Shown: one piece after another, positions 3,711 to 37,609 of the stretch
Position numbering within the stretch: the first letter of the stretch is position 1
Layout of the letters: the number at the start of each line of letters is the position of its first letter
Virus record (IMG/VR): IMGVR_UViG_3300047496_000347
Coordinates: 1-37,609 of that record
Origin: a virus
Reading direction: 5' to 3' (one strand)
Length of the DNA: 37,609 bases
Program-made: the position numbers and the translations under genes
The notes under the pieces: model-generated
What the model was told of the DNA's origin: nothing
What the model saw: only the letters and a program-made list of their open reading frames with translations
The model's database searches: none

Positions 3711-3739
3711 AAAAAGAGAGCCGGAAGGATAACCGGCTC
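3709..3739 (-). terminator. intrinsic terminator (minus strand) between exo and bet
   Basis: Stem GAGCCGG/CCGGCTC (3718-3724 and 3733-3739) with a 7-nt loop; on the minus strand it is followed by CTC and seven T. It faces against the rightward exo-bet operon, so it would stop antisense transcripts arriving from the leftward genes near 4.5-5.1 kb. It is not a plus-strand terminator because no T-run follows on that strand. Confidence 0.7.
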
Positions 3740-4553: not shown

Positions 4554-4696
4554 GCATGATCTTCGAAATCCTCCAAGGATGTCTCTATTATAAGAGAGTC
4601 CTTGGATATTTCTTCAGCTTCTTCTATGATTGCTGGCATACTCCCACACGCTGTTATTAGCATGAGAAGTACATAAAGAATCATGATGTACATCAT
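4550..4696 (-). CDS. small lipoprotein (48 aa), possible lysis protein
   Basis: Begins MMYIMILYVLLMLITACGS: a hydrophobic signal with lipobox ITAC and the lipidated Cys at residue 17. A 31-residue acidic, helical tail follows. The ATG overlaps the stop of the 4693-4908 gene by 4 bp, and the end overlaps the bet stop on the other strand. Size and plan recall Rz1 outer-membrane spanin lipoproteins and colicin-lysis lipoproteins, though Rz1 is usually Pro-rich and nested in Rz, neither of which is true here. Lysis function is inferred from architecture only. Confidence 0.6.
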   Translation of the reverse strand: MMYIMILYVLLMLITACGSMPAIIEEAEEISKDSLIIETSLEDFEDHA

Positions 4697-4908: not shown

Positions 4909-5060
4909 TATTTCTTTCCTTTCTTTTTAGGAATTTTTGCACCAGCTTTGCGTGCTACGTTTAACGCAATGGCAACGGCTTGTTTCTGAGGATGTGTTTT
5001 AGCTTCTTCTTTAATATTTTTTGATATAGTCTTTTTAGAAGTACCTTTAAGGAGCGGCAT
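4908..5060 (-). CDS. small Lys-rich protein, DUF6496-like (50 aa)
   Basis: Strongly basic: starts MPLLKGTSKKTISKN and contains QKQAVAIALNVARKAGAKIP followed by a KKKGKK tail. The QKQAVAIAL...RKAG signature is shared by many tiny phage and bacterial proteins grouped as DUF6496, function unknown (nucleic-acid binding is plausible from charge). GAGG lies 8 bp before the ATG. The start codon overlaps the start codon of the divergent HNH gene (shared CATG at 5058-5061). Confidence 0.7.
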   Translation of the reverse strand: MPLLKGTSKKTISKNIKEEAKTHPQKQAVAIALNVARKAGAKIPKKKGKK

Positions 5061-5610
5061 GATAAAACCTCATAATGTTAAATGTTTGTATTGCGAAACA
5101 ACTTTGTATGTTCCTAGATTTAGATTGAAAACATTCAAATATTGCTCGCGTAAATGTAAAAATAAATGCAATACAATTAGAATAAAAGCTAATTGTGCAA
5201 TATGTTCTAAAACTTTCACACATATTTCTTCTAGATGCAATAAAGCAAAATATTGTTCTCGAAAGTGTTATCATCGCTCTCAAATCGGACGAGGTTCTAT
5301 TGAAAATTTTTGCAAACATTGCAATAAATCTTTTTATGATAGTCCTTGTAAAAAGCGAATTTATTGTTCTAAATTTTGCGTTAACAAAGAGGAAAAATCT
5401 CTTTTCAAACCCACATATTCTACAGTTCGAAAAATGATGATAAGAAGAAATATGATTCAAAAATGCAATATATGTGGATATGAAGAAGTTAAAGATATTC
5501 TTGGAGTTCATCATAAAGATGGGAATAGAAAAAATAATGAAATTAAAAATTTGATGATTGTTTGTCCGTTGTGTCATTCACTAATCCATCATAAGCATAT
5601 TGTGCATTGA
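5059..5610 (+). CDS. HNH endonuclease with zinc-ribbon repeats
   Basis: 183 residues. The N-terminal two thirds carry repeated Cys pairs (C9/C12, C29/C33, C46/C49, C66/C70, C85/C88, C103/C107) typical of zinc-ribbon DNA-binding homing nucleases. The C-terminal HNH/zinc core has C136-x2-C139, the HH at 151-152, conserved Asn residues after it, and C169-x2-C172. AAGGAG lies 4 bp before the ATG, which overlaps the opposing gene's ATG. More AT-rich than its neighbours and wedged between two coupled gene sets, it looks like a free-standing homing endonuclease insertion. A packaging-associated HNH is less likely because the terminase is far away. Confidence 0.85.
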   Translation: MIKPHNVKCLYCETTLYVPRFRLKTFKYCSRKCKNKCNTIRIKANCAICSKTFTHISSRCNKAKYCSRKCYHRSQIGRGSIENFCKHCNKSFYDSPCKKRIYCSKFCVNKEEKSLFKPTYSTVRKMMIRRNMIQKCNICGYEEVKDILGVHHKDGNRKNNEIKNLMIVCPLCHSLIHHKHIVH

Positions 5611-5635: not shown

Positions 5636-5724
5636 AAAAAAAAATTATGATGCAACTGAAATATAATTATTATTTTAATTTAACATGTTCTATATGTGAC
5701 TTGAAAGGTTAAATGGAGGTAAAT

Positions 5725-6396
5725 ATGAGCAGAGTAAGAAAAGTTACGCATACTGTTAATATAGCGATAGCGGAACCTGTAAATCATCAGCCGATTCCAA
5801 TTGCAGCTCCGCCAATGCCGATTGTGCCGGTCTCAATACCAGAGCCTATCAAAGATACAATAGAAAGTTTATCAAACGTTTCAAAAGGAGAAAATATGTC
5901 ATACGTGGCAAGTGTATTAAGCAAATATGATCCGAGAGTGTTGCGTGGAAGCACATTTACATTCAAAGCAATATGGATGGGAAGAGTTGTTGTAACATGC
6001 GCGATTCTCTATGGTATCTACAAAATTGCTAGAAACTATAAAAGAATCTATGCTGCAGCTCGTGAGGTATATGACAATTATAAAGCGAGGGAAGAAAAAC
6101 ATCCTGTTCGTTTAAATATTACTGTAAGAGCTCCTACTGAATTAAGGCTGTATATGGATCATGCTCCGAATGCTCCTTGCCCCGAACCTTTATCGGGAAG
6201 AGCAGAAGGGGCATCGGGTGGAAGATTAGCACAAGCTGCCAGAGCATCTTCTGCAAGTTCTGAAGCAATTGCACAAACTCTTGCTAAAGGTGGTACTGTA
6301 GCGGATGTCGAAAAATTACCAGGAGCACAAGATGCTTCTAGTACATGGTGGAGTTTTGGTTTTGGTGCACAACCAAGAACGCAACAACATACTTGA
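5725..6396 (+). CDS. predicted membrane protein with dual in-frame starts (223 aa)
   Basis: Residues 1-45 are Pro-rich and hydrophobic. One transmembrane helix (about 82-102, AIWMGRVVVTCAILYGIYKI) is followed by a basic, Tyr/Arg-rich helix and an Ala/Gly/Ser-rich tail. The ATG at 5725 has GGAGG 5 bp upstream, whereas the ATG at 5713 has none. A second in-frame ATG at 5896 (residue 58) has an equally good AAGGAG and would give a 166-residue form that keeps the membrane helix. Unrecognised. Dual starts are known in holin/antiholin genes, but this protein is long for a holin. Confidence 0.6.
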   Translation: MSRVRKVTHTVNIAIAEPVNHQPIPIAAPPMPIVPVSIPEPIKDTIESLSNVSKGENMSYVASVLSKYDPRVLRGSTFTFKAIWMGRVVVTCAILYGIYKIARNYKRIYAAAREVYDNYKAREEKHPVRLNITVRAPTELRLYMDHAPNAPCPEPLSGRAEGASGGRLAQAARASSASSEAIAQTLAKGGTVADVEKLPGAQDASSTWWSFGFGAQPRTQQHT

Positions 6397-6415
6397 TTGA
6401 TTAAAAAATAGGAAT

Positions 6416-6456
6416 CATATATACCTTTGGTGGATTTCTAACCAGAGGTATATATG
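6416..6456 (+). promoter_or_regulatory. stem-loop masking the RBS and start of the 6454 gene
   Basis: Arms 6416-6431 and 6441-6456 pair over 16 bp (15 Watson-Crick plus one T-G), with a 9-nt loop. The right arm contains both the AGAGG ribosome-binding site (6444-6448) and the start codon (6454-6456) of the next gene. No T-run follows, so it is not a terminator. In mRNA that includes the left arm, translation should be blocked; a transcript starting inside the loop would be free. Comparable RBS-masking hairpins delay the T4 lysozyme gene until late transcription. Confidence 0.75.
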
Positions 6457-6696
6457 CTCTATTTACTATTGATATTCTCTTCTATTTTTATTCCTTTACA
6501 AGCCTGTGAGAGTTGCTATCAGATTATTTTGTCTGAAAATGTACATCTAAGAAAAAAATTATTGAAAATGAATCCTGAAAAATTCACACACCCAGATCAA
6601 ATCGCTGATTTTCACCATTTGGATGGACGCGTGAGACAGAATGATTGGATTTTAGGAATAATGAAAAACAATCATCCCGAAGAATCTTGTGAATAA
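6454..6696 (+). CDS. secreted or lipid-anchored small protein (80 aa)
   Basis: Hydrophobic leader MLYLLLIFSSIFIPLQACES ends in a lipobox-like LQAC (C18), with Cys also at 21. The mature part is polar and helical (LRKKLLKM..., DQIADFHHLDGRVRQNDW). Translation appears gated by the hairpin at 6416-6456. No lysozyme, amidase or spanin motif is recognised. A timed envelope role such as lysis or superinfection exclusion would fit the leader and the regulation, but is inference. Ends flush against the last fibre gene on the other strand. Confidence 0.65.
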   Translation: MLYLLLIFSSIFIPLQACESCYQIILSENVHLRKKLLKMNPEKFTHPDQIADFHHLDGRVRQNDWILGIMKNNHPEESCE

Positions 6697-8349
6697 TTAA
6701 GCTATTACATATTCAGTAATCACAACGAAGCCTGCGGCACCATTTCCGCCAGCTGATGCACCTGATGTGCCTGTATTAACAGCACCACTTCCTCCAGAAC
6801 CTGGTGTAGTGGCATTAACTCCGGCAATGGTAGTATTGATTGAGGATGTTCCCACAGGAACCGCGCCAGCACCAAAATACGATGATCCTCCTCCTCCAGA
6901 CCAAACTGGGACAGTGGTAAATCCTATACTTTGACCGCCATTTCCTCCGTAAGCATTGATATCTCCTCCACTTCCAACACCTCCCACAACTACGAAACTC
7001 AAGGTAGCGGTAACATTTCCTCCAAATTGGCCTCCAACACCAGCTGTTGCCGAAACTATTGCACCAACAGAGCTCGCCCCTCCAGTACCACCATTATTTG
7101 CACCCGCAGCACCACCAGCACCCCCTGCACCAATTGTGACAGCTTGTGATCCACCAATAGTAGCAGCAGATACTGTTTTTCTTACATAACCTCCACCACT
7201 TCCACCACCACCACCACCGGTTGTTCCCGCAGCGCTTGCTTGAACGGCACCCCCACCACCACCACCGCCTACACATTCAATGGTGCAATATTTCATTCCA
7301 CTCGTTGGTGTGTAAGTTCCATTTGCATTGAATGTTTGAACTATAACTGAAAACAATCCACTAGCTAGAGATACAAAGCCATTTGTATCTACAGTGAATT
7401 CAGTATTCTTATAATGCGAAACCCCATTTTTTGTAGGGTCTGCGGAAGCAGCTGTTGTGGCTCGTTGGATTTCAATAGTGTATGTATTGGCTGCAAGAGA
7501 GTTAGTTCTAATGACGTCTGTTCCCACCGTCATAGCGGCAACCTGGTTACCTGTAACAGTAATCTGACCGGAAGCATTTGGTACGACAGGACTAGTTCCT
7601 GGGGCTGTGTGGGCATCAACAACTACACCAGAGAGCGCTTGGCCACCACCTTTAAGCTGAACAAAAGCATTGGCATCTACTTGAAAGGCTGCGCTATCGA
7701 AATGAGAAACACCATTATCTGCAAGTGTTGTTGAGGCTACTGCCGTTGATCTTTGAATCTCTACTGTGTATGTGTTGGCAGCTAATGAATCAGTACGAAT
7801 TACATTAGTTCCAACAACCCCTTGGGCTACTTGTGCGCCGGTAATTGTAATATTTCCTGTACCACTTGGAAGAACAGGATTAGTTCCAGGCCCTGTGTGG
7901 GCATCTACGGTGAATTGTTCAATTGGTGCTAAACCACCCATTACATCAAAATTGATTGTATGGTTATTTGGAGATGCAGAAGATCCGGTTATTACAACTG
8001 TTCCTGCTGATGAAGTGAAATTCATTGTACCTGTTGTGTCAGGCACAATTGGGGATGTTCCATTAGGAACGGTAACCATCAGCATAGGTCCAGAAGTGCC
8101 TGAAGATAGTAAAATCCAGTTAGCTAGATTTGCTGTGATCTTCTGCAAAGCCCAGAGATTTCCATTTGTAGAGTTGGTCCAGAACGATCCTGTGGGATAA
8201 TAACCTTGTTGCTCTTTAGGCTTAATATCATTTGAAGCATTAGTAGGAGAATGAGGATCACGCCCACGAATATATCTAGGAGCAAAACTATAATCTTGCC
8301 CCTGATAACGTGTTACATTTCTGAAACTGTCTGACGATGGATTGCTCAT
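6697..8349 (-). CDS. tail fibre protein with glycine-rich tip (550 aa)
   Basis: Last gene of the fibre cluster. Residues 40-85 hold the YPTGSFWTNSTNG...W module also seen in the 12210 protein. About 145-325 contain two tandem copies of an 89-residue beta module, each starting VDAHT.PGT and including RT.SLAANTYT.EIQR. The last 210 residues are a Gly-rich domain that starts TFNANGTYTPTSGMK and CVGGGGGGGA and ends in GFVVITEY. That is the layout of Gly-rich phage fibre tips, where loops between polyglycine helices contact the receptor. Likely the host-recognition end of the adsorption apparatus. Confidence 0.75.
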   Translation of the reverse strand: MSNPSSDSFRNVTRYQGQDYSFAPRYIRGRDPHSPTNASNDIKPKEQQGYYPTGSFWTNSTNGNLWALQKITANLANWILLSSGTSGPMLMVTVPNGTSPIVPDTTGTMNFTSSAGTVVITGSSASPNNHTINFDVMGGLAPIEQFTVDAHTGPGTNPVLPSGTGNITITGAQVAQGVVGTNVIRTDSLAANTYTVEIQRSTAVASTTLADNGVSHFDSAAFQVDANAFVQLKGGGQALSGVVVDAHTAPGTSPVVPNASGQITVTGNQVAAMTVGTDVIRTNSLAANTYTIEIQRATTAASADPTKNGVSHYKNTEFTVDTNGFVSLASGLFSVIVQTFNANGTYTPTSGMKYCTIECVGGGGGGGAVQASAAGTTGGGGGGSGGGYVRKTVSAATIGGSQAVTIGAGGAGGAAGANNGGTGGASSVGAIVSATAGVGGQFGGNVTATLSFVVVGGVGSGGDINAYGGNGGQSIGFTTVPVWSGGGGSSYFGAGAVPVGTSSINTTIAGVNATTPGSGGSGAVNTGTSGASAGGNGAAGFVVITEYVIA

Positions 8350-14900: not shown

Positions 14901-14928
14901 AAAAGCTCTATATCAATGGAGCTTTTTT
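14901..14928 (+). terminator. terminator/attenuator hairpin immediately before the portal start
   Basis: Stem AAAAGCTC/GAGCTTTT (14901-14908 and 14919-14926), loop of 10 nt, then T to 14928; the portal ATG is at 14930. The only ribosome-binding-site-like sequence (TGGAG, 14917-14921) is inside the stem. The element could therefore both reduce transcription into the portal gene and limit its translation. A half-copy of the TTTACTTTA motif lies 20 bp upstream (14872-14880). Confidence 0.65.
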
Positions 14929-17266: not shown

Positions 17267-17464
17267 TTACTTTTTTCTGGCTTCTTCGATAGCACACAGA
17301 CGTCCATGAAAATCTTTCATTTCTTTATTAATTTCATCCTTCCAACCTCTTACTTCAACTTCAAAAGCTTTAATATCCGATCTCAACCAAGAAATAAGTG
17401 CAATATTAGCACCAATTATTGTAACAACAGTTCCTGCCCCTGTTAATATTATTGTTCCATCCAT
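17267..17464 (-). CDS. one-TM coiled-coil protein of the DFHxRLC family (65 aa)
   Basis: A transmembrane helix (about residues 5-27) is followed by a charged coiled coil and the signature DFHGRLCAIEE at the C-terminus. This is the same plan and ending as the 29952, 30205 and 30443 proteins. AGGAG lies 7 bp before the ATG. It stands alone, against transcription, inside the virion gene cluster, so it is a stray member of the 30-35 kb paralogue family (a moron-like cassette). Role unknown: small one-TM phage proteins include holins, antiholins and exclusion proteins. Confidence 0.7.
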   Translation of the reverse strand: MDGTIILTGAGTVVTIIGANIALISWLRSDIKAFEVEVRGWKDEINKEMKDFHGRLCAIEEARKK

Positions 17465-29951: not shown

Positions 29952-30203
29952 TTACTTATCCTTCATGATTTGGAGATATCTTTCTTCCAAAATACATAAA
30001 CGAGCATGAAAATCTTTCATTTCGTTTTTTATTTCATTTAATATAATATTGACAGCTCGAATGTCGGCCCTGGATTCACTTCTATTCCATATGAAGAGAC
30101 CTACAACGGTTCCAAGCATAGCGAGTATTAATCCAATGTTTACACCAGCTAATGTAATAATTTGTGTCCAATCCATACTAGTCACCGCTCCTTCAATAGT
30201 CAT
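29952..30203 (-). CDS. one-TM coiled-coil protein of the DFHxRLC family (83 aa)
   Basis: Membrane helix about residues 12-38 (WTQIITLAGVNIGLILAMLG...), then a charged coiled coil ending in MKDFHARLCILEER, the family signature. The first nine residues may be spurious: an internal start at 30176 gives MDWTQII, matching the MEW/MDW starts of the paralogues and with GAAGGAG 11 bp upstream. Part of the membrane-protein series; co-transcribed with 30205-30866. Confidence 0.7.
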   Translation of the reverse strand: MTIEGAVTSMDWTQIITLAGVNIGLILAMLGTVVGLFIWNRSESRADIRAVNIILNEIKNEMKDFHARLCILEERYLQIMKDK

Positions 30204-30204
30204 A

Positions 30205-30441
30205 TTATTCTGCCTTTTCTTTTCTATGGTCTTTTAACATACAACATTCTTTAGATGAAAATGCTCCCTCAAGTCTGCAAAGACGGCGGTCGATATCTAA
30301 TACCAAGTTTTTTAATTCAGTGTGATCAGTCTTCATATCTTGTTTAAGATTTCGCAAAAACATTCCTATTAAACCTAATAGCGTTATTAACAGACTGACA
30401 AGTGCAATTAATGTATCAGTTTGATTCCATGTAAATTCCAT
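30205..30441 (-). CDS. one-TM coiled-coil protein, divergent family member (78 aa)
   Basis: Starts MEFTWNQTDTLIALVSLLIT with a membrane helix (about 10-28), followed by a coiled coil with DIDRRLCRLEG, a diverged copy of the DFHxRLCxLEE ending, and a basic C-terminus with a Cys pair (SKECC). One base separates it from the neighbours on each side. Same overall plan as the 30443 protein. Confidence 0.7.
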   Translation of the reverse strand: MEFTWNQTDTLIALVSLLITLLGLIGMFLRNLKQDMKTDHTELKNLVLDIDRRLCRLEGAFSSKECCMLKDHRKEKAE

Positions 30442-30442
30442 A

Positions 30443-30694
30443 TTACTTCCTCTTTTCCTCTAATGAATACATACGAGCATGGAAGTCGCTCATCTCAATT
30501 TGAATTGATTTAATGATTTCTTTGGTTTCTTTACGCCATTCATCAATTTTTGTATTTGTTTCCTGACGGTAGCTGTCGATTTTTTTATCAGAACGATTGT
30601 CTATATGTATTACATATGCAACAATTCCACCGAATACTGCGCCAATTAATGCAAAGTTAGCACCAACAATAGCTAAAACATGAGTCCATTCCAT
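30443..30694 (-). CDS. one-TM coiled-coil protein of the DFHxRLC family (83 aa)
   Basis: MEWTHVLAIVGANFALIGAV leads into a membrane helix (about 5-27); a long charged heptad region (DKKIDSYRQETNTKIDEW) follows and the end is MSDFHARMYSLEEKRK, with Tyr in place of the family Cys. The longest coiled coil of the group. Packed one base from its neighbours, in line with one leftward unit. Confidence 0.7.
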   Translation of the reverse strand: MEWTHVLAIVGANFALIGAVFGGIVAYVIHIDNRSDKKIDSYRQETNTKIDEWRKETKEIIKSIQIEMSDFHARMYSLEEKRK

Positions 30695-31437: not shown

Positions 31438-31457
31438 AATGCATTCCTTGAAATTAA

Positions 31458-31529
31458 TGCCATGTAAAGGATTCGAACCCACATCCTCTGTTTAATCGAC
31501 AGATGCTCTACCAATTGAGCTAACATGGC
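31458..31529 (-). tRNA. tRNA-like gene, Asn-like with unusual anticodon loop
   Basis: 72 nt fold as a cloverleaf. Acceptor GCCATGT/ACATGGC is perfect (7 bp), D stem GCTC/GAGC perfect with GG in the loop, anticodon stem TCTGT/ACAGA perfect (5 bp), T loop TTCGAAT canonical. Two departures: the anticodon loop is CGATTAA, so position 33 is G rather than the near-universal U, and the putative anticodon would be ATT. The T stem is also weak (GTGGG/CCTTT, one mismatch and two G-T pairs). CCA is not encoded. It could be a decayed tRNA, a tRNA-derived RNA, or a true tRNA with odd decoding. Confidence 0.7.
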
Positions 31530-31563
31530 AAAAAAAGGGGGCTACGCGTTTTAAGCGTGCCCC
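31530..31563 (-). terminator. intrinsic terminator (minus strand) abutting the tRNA-like gene
   Basis: GGGG-C/G-CCCC stem (31538-31542 with 31559-31563) continued by ACGC/GCGT around a T bulge. On the minus strand it is followed by C and seven T (31536-31530), the last T touching the first base of the tRNA-like gene. It ends the operon that comes from 35.3 kb. Confidence 0.75.
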
Positions 31564-31801: not shown

Positions 31802-31976
31802 TAGGCTTCTCCGGTAGCGGCATCCAGTATGTGACCCTCAATGGATACCCGTAATCATCAATCCATTTCATGTTATCATGCAAGCTTCCTATGATCATTC
31901 CTTCGTTTTCTAGATAACATATTACCCCTTCAAACTCTTCTGGCAATTTATCCTCAACGCTTATCCATTCGCTCAT
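31794..31976 (-). CDS. DUF551 protein, copy 1 (60 aa)
   Basis: MSEWISVEDKLPEE start and VTYWMPLPEKP end mark it as DUF551, in tandem with a diverged second copy (31598-31801). The middle regions differ strongly, suggesting an old duplication. GAGG 5 bp before the ATG; ATGA overlap with the upstream gene. Confidence 0.8.
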   Translation of the reverse strand: MSEWISVEDKLPEEFEGVICYLENEGMIIGSLHDNMKWIDDYGYPLRVTYWMPLPEKPNE

Positions 31977-32188
31977 TTATGCCTCTTAACTAGCTCATAA
32001 AACATGTGATAAAGCTCATCTGTCCGTTTAGATTGCTCAGCCTGCATTGCAGTCAAATGACGTGTCCAGTCTCTAAGCTCAGCTTCAATATGTTTAAATT
32101 TACTATTTAACCAGCCAATAAAAAATGCTATCAATGTAATCGAAACACCCAAAATTCCGGTAATAGCTCCTATCGTTGACCATTCCAT
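31973..32188 (-). CDS. one-TM coiled-coil protein (71 aa)
   Basis: MEWSTIGAITGILGVSITLI: membrane helix (about 5-27), then an amphipathic coiled coil ending RTDELYHMFYELVKRH. This ending matches RRVDQLYMMFCDLLKEQ of the 35144 protein, making the two a second subfamily beside the DFHxRLC proteins. Overlaps the next gene by 4 bp. Confidence 0.7.
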   Translation of the reverse strand: MEWSTIGAITGILGVSITLIAFFIGWLNSKFKHIEAELRDWTRHLTAMQAEQSKRTDELYHMFYELVKRHK

Positions 32189-34625: not shown

Positions 34626-34847
34626 CTATCTCTTCCGCTCTTTATCATATTCATGAAGCATCTCGTTTGCTCGGCGTTTATTTTCTCTTTCAAGGATTCG
34701 AGCTACGATAACGCTTGGCAATAGCTTAAAGGCTTCCGCCATATTATTATCCAGATCTTTGATATCTCTTCTGATATATTTGATTTGTGCTACAACATAG
34801 CCGGCAATTGCCCCAATAATTGAAAAGCAAATAAGACCCCAATCCAT
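34626..34847 (-). CDS. one-TM protein with basic coiled coil (73 aa)
   Basis: MDWGLICFSIIGAIAGYVVA forms a membrane helix (about 4-22), then charged helices (RRDIKDLDNNMAEAFKLL, ARILERENKRRANEML) and a KER-rich end. The same topology as the MEW-starting proteins, without their C-terminal signature. It sits between the two members of the 34317/34849 paralogue pair. Confidence 0.7.
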   Translation of the reverse strand: MDWGLICFSIIGAIAGYVVAQIKYIRRDIKDLDNNMAEAFKLLPSVIVARILERENKRRANEMLHEYDKERKR

Positions 34848-35143: not shown

Positions 35144-35320
35144 TTATTTCCTCTGCTCCTTGAGTAGGTCGCAGAACATCATATAGAGCTGGTCTACACG
35201 CCTGTTTGTGTCTTTATTAGTCTCTCGAATCTCTTTGATCTCATTATCGACACGTGCCGCGTGCCACAATGTAAAGCCGCCAAGCACGCCAATGATGGTT
35301 AAAACTTGAATCCATTCCAT
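35144..35320 (-). CDS. one-TM coiled-coil protein (58 aa), first gene of the accessory operon
   Basis: MEWIQVLTIIGVLGGFTLWH gives a membrane helix (about 4-20), followed by a charged coiled coil (DNEIKEIRETNKDTNRRVDQ) and LYMMFCDLLKEQRK, which matches the end of the 31973 protein. GAGG lies 7 bp before the ATG. A promoter candidate is just upstream (35345-35373). Confidence 0.7.
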   Translation of the reverse strand: MEWIQVLTIIGVLGGFTLWHAARVDNEIKEIRETNKDTNRRVDQLYMMFCDLLKEQRK

Positions 35321-37275: not shown

Positions 37276-37590
37276 TTAGAATGGAAGAGGTTCGACCTCG
37301 ATTTGCTCAAAAGCATCTAATTGTTTAAATTCTGGTTCTTTGGGTAGGGTGGCTATGTAAGATTCGAGGGCTTCGAGGACTTTCTTATCAAAGATGTCCT
37401 TTGTTTGTTTTTCTTCGAATTGCATGTAAGCAAAATATTTCTTTTGGCCGCCATCTTCATATTGGCGTGAAGGGAAGCTTATCCAGCGATGAGAGCCTTT
37501 TTGAAAAAGGGTCATATCGCGTAGTATGATATTGCCCCACTTAGGAATTTTGAGTGAAAACGTTGCGAGAAGTGAATTTTTGTTAATTGG
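37276..37590 (-). CDS. SpoVG-like protein, 3' part (gene crosses the contig junction)
   Basis: C-terminal part of the gene that begins at 120-118 (see the entry at 1-120). Residues through the SPS/PSR core (WISFPSRQYEDGGQKKYFAY) and the helical tail (EKQTKDIFDKKVLEALESYI) up to EPLPF are here. A start at the internal ATG (37513-37515) would remove the first strands of the fold and has no ribosome-binding site. The frame leaves the repeat in the artefactual last 19 bases. Confidence 0.6.
   Translation of the reverse strand, partial: PINKNSLLATFSLKIPKWGNIILRDMTLFQKGSHRWISFPSRQYEDGGQKKYFAYMQFEEKQTKDIFDKKVLEALESYIATLPKEPEFKQLDAFEQIEVEPLPF
37492..37590. repeat. 99-bp direct terminal repeat, right copy
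   Basis: Identical to 1-99; see that entry. The two copies show the sequence closes on itself. Confidence 0.95.
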
Positions 37591-37609
37591 GGCAATATCA
37601 TACTACGCG
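37588..37609. repeat. 22-nt fold-back of the terminal repeat
   Basis: The reverse complement of 37588-37609 is identical to 27-48 and to 37518-37539. The end would form a hairpin with a 48-nt loop. It breaks the SpoVG-like frame and is not present at the left end, so it is most likely an assembly or library inversion artefact, not a telomere. Confidence 0.85.

Follow-up and report, generated by a model that had tools for sequence, protein, structure and literature searches.

A leader hairpin over the ribosome-binding site and start codon of a putative secreted-protein gene in an environmental podovirus-like phage

Background

Does a hairpin that covers both the ribosome-binding site and the start codon of a phage gene serve to control that gene, or does the start codon lie incidentally within a structure of another kind? 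The question is raised by a locus in a 37,609-base virus record obtained from environmental DNA (the whole of which is hereafter referred to as the window), where a 16-bp stem-loop precedes the gene of a putative 80-aa secreted protein. An initial annotation of the sequence had proposed that the stem gates the translation of a secreted or lipid-anchored protein with a possible part in lysis or exclusion.

The gene content of the window is podovirus-like, with the following landmarks:

3144, + strand: exonuclease
3816, + strand: annealing protein
up to 13121, - strand: tail fibres
13219, + strand: terminase (profile match)
14930, + strand: portal (profile match)
19054, + strand: capsid-type gene, at least 90% identical in the closer relatives

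Judged by the relatives of its terminase and portal, the phage is a member of a group unrelated to T4, with no known link to it. The only lead to a host is a 5.3-kb MAG contig (L127) labelled Syntrophaceae UBA7544, which carries the capsid-type gene at 92% identity; it is too little for a host assignment and may reflect mis-binning.

Other features of the window were also observed. A hairpin at 14901-14926 (AAAAGCTC-N10-GAGCTTTT) followed by a T-run is terminator-like and overlaps a Shine-Dalgarno (SD) sequence, the GGAG that precedes the portal gene (14930) being part of its 3' arm. A family of small proteins, all encoded on the - strand (17267-17464, 29952-30694, 31973-32188, 34626-34847 and 35144-35320), is present in multiple copies in the window and in its relatives; its members have a single membrane segment, a coiled-coil-like character, an MEW/MDW start and a '...DFHGRLCALEE' end, and are possibly holin-like or envelope proteins. 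A tRNA-Asn gene (31457-31530, - strand) has the unusual anticodon ATT. At the end of the record, a 26-bp inverted repeat of 96% identity (37518-37543 and 37584-37609, 40 nt between) stops exactly at the last base, just upstream of a - strand gene (37276-37515), and may be a true element or a fold-back produced by the assembly.

Methods

Relatives of the window were recruited via the terminase, the exonuclease and the annealing protein, and their synteny was compared. The number of SD-burying hairpins expected in the phage group was obtained from shuffled upstream sequence. Lipoproteins were recognised by a lipobox of the form [LVI][ASTVI][GAS]C after a basic n-region and a hydrophobic stretch.

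Results and discussion

The hairpin and its significance

The elements of the hairpin and its immediate surroundings are given below:

6403 to 6408, - strand: six consecutive U in the RNA of the opposite strand, at a distance of 7 nt from the stem
6406 to 6412, + strand: 5' side of an outer helix in the predicted fold, partner 6458-6464
6416 to 6431, + strand: 5' arm of the hairpin, CATATATACCTTTGGT
6432 to 6440, + strand: loop of 9 nt, GGATTTCTA
6441 to 6456, + strand: 3' arm, ACCAGAGGTATATATG, containing the ribosome-binding site and the start codon
6444 to 6448, + strand: SD sequence AGAGG, 5 nt before the ATG, fully paired in the read-through RNA
6458 to 6464, + strand: 3' side of the outer helix in the predicted fold, partner 6406-6412

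The arms pair at 16 positions, 15 of them Watson-Crick and one a U6427.G6445 wobble, and the ATG (6454-6456) lies inside the 3' arm together with the AGAGG. The initial annotation had placed a 16-bp stem-loop at exactly 6416-6456, with both of these elements in its 3' arm, and both are found to be paired; it had also reported the absence of a terminator T-run, and none follows the stem on the + strand (CTCTATTTACTATTG). It did not mention the outer helix or the opposite-strand run of six U.

Compared with shuffled sequences, the fold of the + strand has a z of -5.2, with no shuffle as good, against -2.5 for the - strand, on which the fold is weaker because the U.G wobble turns into an A.C mismatch. 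The hairpin scores 35.5; when the whole window (37.6 kb) was dinucleotide-shuffled 40 times, the best maximum was 33.5 and no shuffle yielded a hairpin of equal score. The hairpin is thus confirmed as real and beyond chance. The search of Rfam with the hairpin returned a chance-level match only.

A structure with such long arms and a 9-bp spacer could also function as DNA, as the operator of a repressor dimer or as a recombination site, overlapping the start of the gene only by virtue of the promoter position, and a promoter-like element (see below) does overlap it. We regard this as improbable: no second copy of the palindrome occurs in the window, IMG/VR or the related loci compared, and across the phage group other strong palindromes at gene starts appear only when the G.U pairs of the mRNA strand are allowed, a dependence which is predicted by RNA pairing and not by DNA symmetry. 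A repeat or mobile-end interpretation was rejected for the same lack of copies.

Burial of the start

On read-through RNA, which includes the 5' arm, the SD sequence is computed to be unpaired about 0.1% of the time, and opening the stretch from the SD to the AUG costs about 18 kcal/mol. At 17.8 kcal/mol against a median of 5.2 kcal/mol, this is the highest opening cost among the 64 putative gene starts in the window. For an RNA starting at 6427-6430 the cost falls to about 4 kcal/mol. Computation thus supports the sequestration of the start proposed in the initial annotation, with the SD and the start codon held in a stable stem on the longer RNA and the site open once the RNA lacks the 5' strand. 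Within the host, the hairpin would be expected to lower translation. A leader peptide that melts the stem was considered and discarded, as no ATG, GTG or TTG opens a frame across the 5' arm.

The position of the SD and the AUG in the 3' arm would equally fit a translational operator or switch that responds to a trans-acting factor (a phage protein, antisense fibre RNA or RNase III) or to temperature, and tail-fibre transcripts continuing beyond their stop would yield antisense RNA covering both the entire gene and the hairpin. Yet the hairpin shows neither a bulge nor a loop motif known from operators and has no Rfam match above chance, and the stability of its stem, about 18 kcal/mol, greatly exceeds that of typical RNA thermometers; a switch of this kind is given a low probability here.

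The gene and its slot beside the tail fibres

The genes around the hairpin are arranged as follows:

5059 to 5610, + strand: HNH endonuclease gene (phrog_1271, E=1.4e-19)
5713 to 6396, + strand: gene of a 227-aa protein with one likely membrane segment and no relatives found; its stop is 20 nt before the hairpin
6454 to 6696, + strand: putative gene of an 80-aa secreted protein, start buried (open reading frame, slot in relatives, model, weak coding signal)
6697 to 8349, - strand: tail-fibre gene, convergent, its stop abutting that of the 80-aa gene (phrog_863, E=2e-42)

The 80-aa reading frame has a signal-like N-terminus, as have the genes found at the corresponding place in relatives, and codon preference lends it mild support; its stop codon and that of the fibre gene are immediately adjacent. 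No homolog of either the 80-aa or the 227-aa protein was found in PHROGs, Pfam, IMG/VR, the phage collection or the 31 related records, the Pfam matches of both being sub-threshold and at chance level. An AlphaFold model of the 80-aa protein (window and five relative proteins) is a confident helical hairpin with a pLDDT of 82.8, the mean exceeding 90 over residues 21-70. The fold search with this model gave nothing below E = 0.5, as is expected since the model is a two-helix hairpin.

In about ten related phages (L005, L008, L017, L025/G024, L022/G021, L087, L103, L110, L132 and L135) a signal-peptide gene is found in the corresponding slot, in convergent orientation to the last of the tail-fibre genes, and the two stops lie between 3 nt apart and 18 nt overlapping (-3 to +18). 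The slot is one fixed place filled with variable, unrelated or weakly related genes for secreted proteins of 58-303 aa, and in L008 it holds four tandem genes. The L008 slot protein with a CxxC...HLxG pattern bears a weak resemblance to the 80-aa protein which is not significant (E ~0.8). Two relatives carry in the slot a secreted gene resembling glycosyltransferase family 92, beside the tail fibres (L110:9892-10713 and L103:9048-9911), assigned through Pfam for L110 only and by resemblance for L103. A further secreted gene resembling this family is located beside the tail-fibre genes of L092 (G028 region), on the fibre strand. Such genes possibly encode modifiers of the host surface.

The slot shared with these relatives indicates that the 80-aa gene is probably real, and upholds that part of the initial annotation which recognised a secreted-protein gene. 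The proposed lipid anchor is unsupported: read from the sequence, the protein has L-Q-A-C as the sole lipobox candidate, with Q at -2, there is no basic residue in its n-region, and a lipobox is missing from the corresponding place in the relatives. The suggested part in lysis or exclusion is likewise unsupported, and from its gene content the slot looks like a place for accessory envelope genes, not a lysis cassette.

The surroundings of the slot are also informative. In L005, L008, L022 and L025 a - strand neighbour, DUF6496-like in several, is transcribed away from it at a distance of 15-70 bp. Where relatives thus have hardly any sequence separating the secreted gene from the DUF6496 gene, the window has the HNH and the 227-aa genes. 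These two are co-directional with the 80-aa gene, and no canonical terminator is found in between; read-through would therefore be a problem particular to the arrangement in the window. Exceptions are seen in L087 and L110, which have co-directional upstream genes yet no hairpin.

A rival view is that the hairpin ends or attenuates transcription, whether of the 227-aa gene (+ strand), of the fibre operon (- strand) or of both, and that the start codon is in its arm incidentally. The hairpin begins where a terminator of the upstream gene would sit, and none is seen between the two convergent stops. Taken together with its outer helix and run of U, the - strand form has d = +2.2, which is just above the usual threshold. 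However, no canonical site, with a GC-rich stem and a direct U-tract, exists at the hairpin on either strand: the + strand U-tail is poor (nT 2.6, d = -18.8), the core stem on the - strand has d = -27.8, and canonical terminators do occur elsewhere in the phage, such as the one on the - strand near 3716 (d = 47). The U.G wobble, too, favours the + strand RNA, and termination leaves unexplained both the exact inclusion of the SD and the AUG within the arm and the group-wide enrichment described below. We consider termination unlikely, while leaving it an appreciable share of probability because the group uses long-stem, weak-U-tract hairpins at gene ends, as after the annealing-protein gene of the window (4572-4606), in G004, G031 and G007, and in G028, where one lies between convergent genes. 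The terminator and the sequestration readings agree in that RNA from upstream would not express the 80-aa gene.

Candidate promoter

Two elements upstream of the gene resemble a promoter:

6393 to 6398, + strand: putative -35-like TTGATT (match to L008)
6416 to 6423, + strand: putative -10-like CATATATA in the 5' arm (match to L008), transcription start expected near 6427-6430

The combination TTGATT-N17-CATATATA recurs upstream of the L008 slot gene with all 14 of 14 positions and the spacing identical, and these two are its only exact occurrences among the related loci compared. When the upstream region was shuffled, one of 60 shuffles matched some relative equally well. The element departs from the sigma-70 consensus in sequence and spacing, CATATA being a poor -10 and TATATA lying at a spacing of 15 or 19 bp. 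The other candidate promoters of the window resemble, as read by eye, TTGCNT-N17-TATATT, and therefore a promoter at CATATATA would be weak. The 5' arm is moreover AT-rich automatically, because it pairs with the SD, the spacer and the ATG. In view of the weak consensus, the shuffling result and this composition, the promoter is only plausible. A TTGATT-N16-CATAAA match in G004 was set aside, because it coincides with the beginning of the coding sequence of the adjacent DUF6496 gene.

Hairpins at other starts in the phage group

A comparable hairpin is absent from all other slot genes, whose starts have opening costs of 3-11 kcal/mol, the next highest being 11.4 (G021) and 8.0 (L132) kcal/mol. 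A close relative of the 80-aa gene itself was not found in IMG/VR, the phage collection or the related records.

Among 1170 SD-ATG starts of the phage group, SD-burying hairpins with a score of at least 30 are present at 4 independent genes as against 0.1 expected, an enrichment that consists of four genes, with the L029 hairpin missing from the minimum-energy fold of a longer context. The four are the 80-aa gene of the window, replication-type genes in L005 and L029, and an HNH gene in L013. In the relatives, the SD/ATG-burying hairpins are located at L005:6590-6636, L029:5892-5944 and L013:3920-3980. At a score of at least 28, 5 starts are obtained with G.U pairs counted against 1 with A.C counted instead, a strand bias that would be expected of structures acting on the mRNA strand. 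On a wider view, such hairpins would be a general switch on secreted accessory, replication and homing endonuclease genes of this podovirus-like environmental clade, having arisen separately from the T4 group and anew at each gene, and with promoters built into the 5' arm; this generalisation is doubtful, and we are inclined to think it does not hold.

Proposed mechanism

We lean, with modest confidence, towards the hairpin being a leader element which sequesters the ribosome-binding site and acts as an insulator or gate for the 80-aa gene. Transcription entering from the HNH and the 227-aa genes would produce RNA with both arms, on which the SD and the AUG would be locked in the 16-bp stem and the 80-aa gene would remain untranslated. 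The protein would be made only from RNA without the 5' arm, which would most likely originate at a promoter with its -10 in that arm and its start near 6427-6430; alternatively, the hairpin might be cut or opened. The net effect would be to insulate an accessory ('moron'-type) envelope gene from read-through of the co-directional insertion upstream, and the hairpin may in this way determine when the gene is expressed. If this is true, a non-T4 phage group joins the short list of those that time or insulate genes by hairpins burying the ribosome-binding site and by internal starts. The variable slot next to the tail fibres, filled with small secreted proteins, is a place in which to seek envelope-modifying or exclusion genes.

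Comparison with known systems

The replicase operator hairpin of the MS2 type also covers the SD and the AUG, and is short, bulged and bound by the coat protein. The window hairpin has the cover of SD and AUG in common with it, while the short, bulged, coat-bound form is not seen here. The slot gene would resemble the moron genes of temperate phages, being an additional gene for an envelope or secreted protein that is placed in a variable slot and predicted to be transcribed as a unit of its own.

Experiments have established the architecture proposed here for T4 e, soc, 49 and I-TevI as well as for mobE of the Aeromonas phage Aeh1, and T4 segB uses the same design, with the SD and the AUG in a helix on the long RNA and a promoter in or next to its 5' strand (PMC3014915, PMC2988022). 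In the leader of the T4 lysozyme gene e, as in the window hairpin, the SD and/or the AUG are helical on the long, early RNA; the promoter, the RNA structure and a repression of about 100-fold were measured for gene e, whereas they are predicted in the window. The gene e leader is common to close relatives, while the phage group of the window is unrelated and the gene encodes a putative secreted accessory protein. In I-TevI, I-TevII, I-TevIII, T4 segB and Aeh1 mobE the ribosome-binding site is sequestered on polycistronic RNA and a promoter lies immediately upstream (PMC2988022), as is proposed for the 80-aa gene. An HNH gene lies two genes upstream of the window hairpin, and the related phage L013 has a similar hairpin on its HNH gene; the hairpins of I-TevI, segB and mobE are on the endonuclease gene itself, whereas that of the window is on the gene downstream of the HNH insertion. 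On paper, therefore, the window hairpin would be a T4-style control device of a known kind, carried by phages for which no link to T4 is known.
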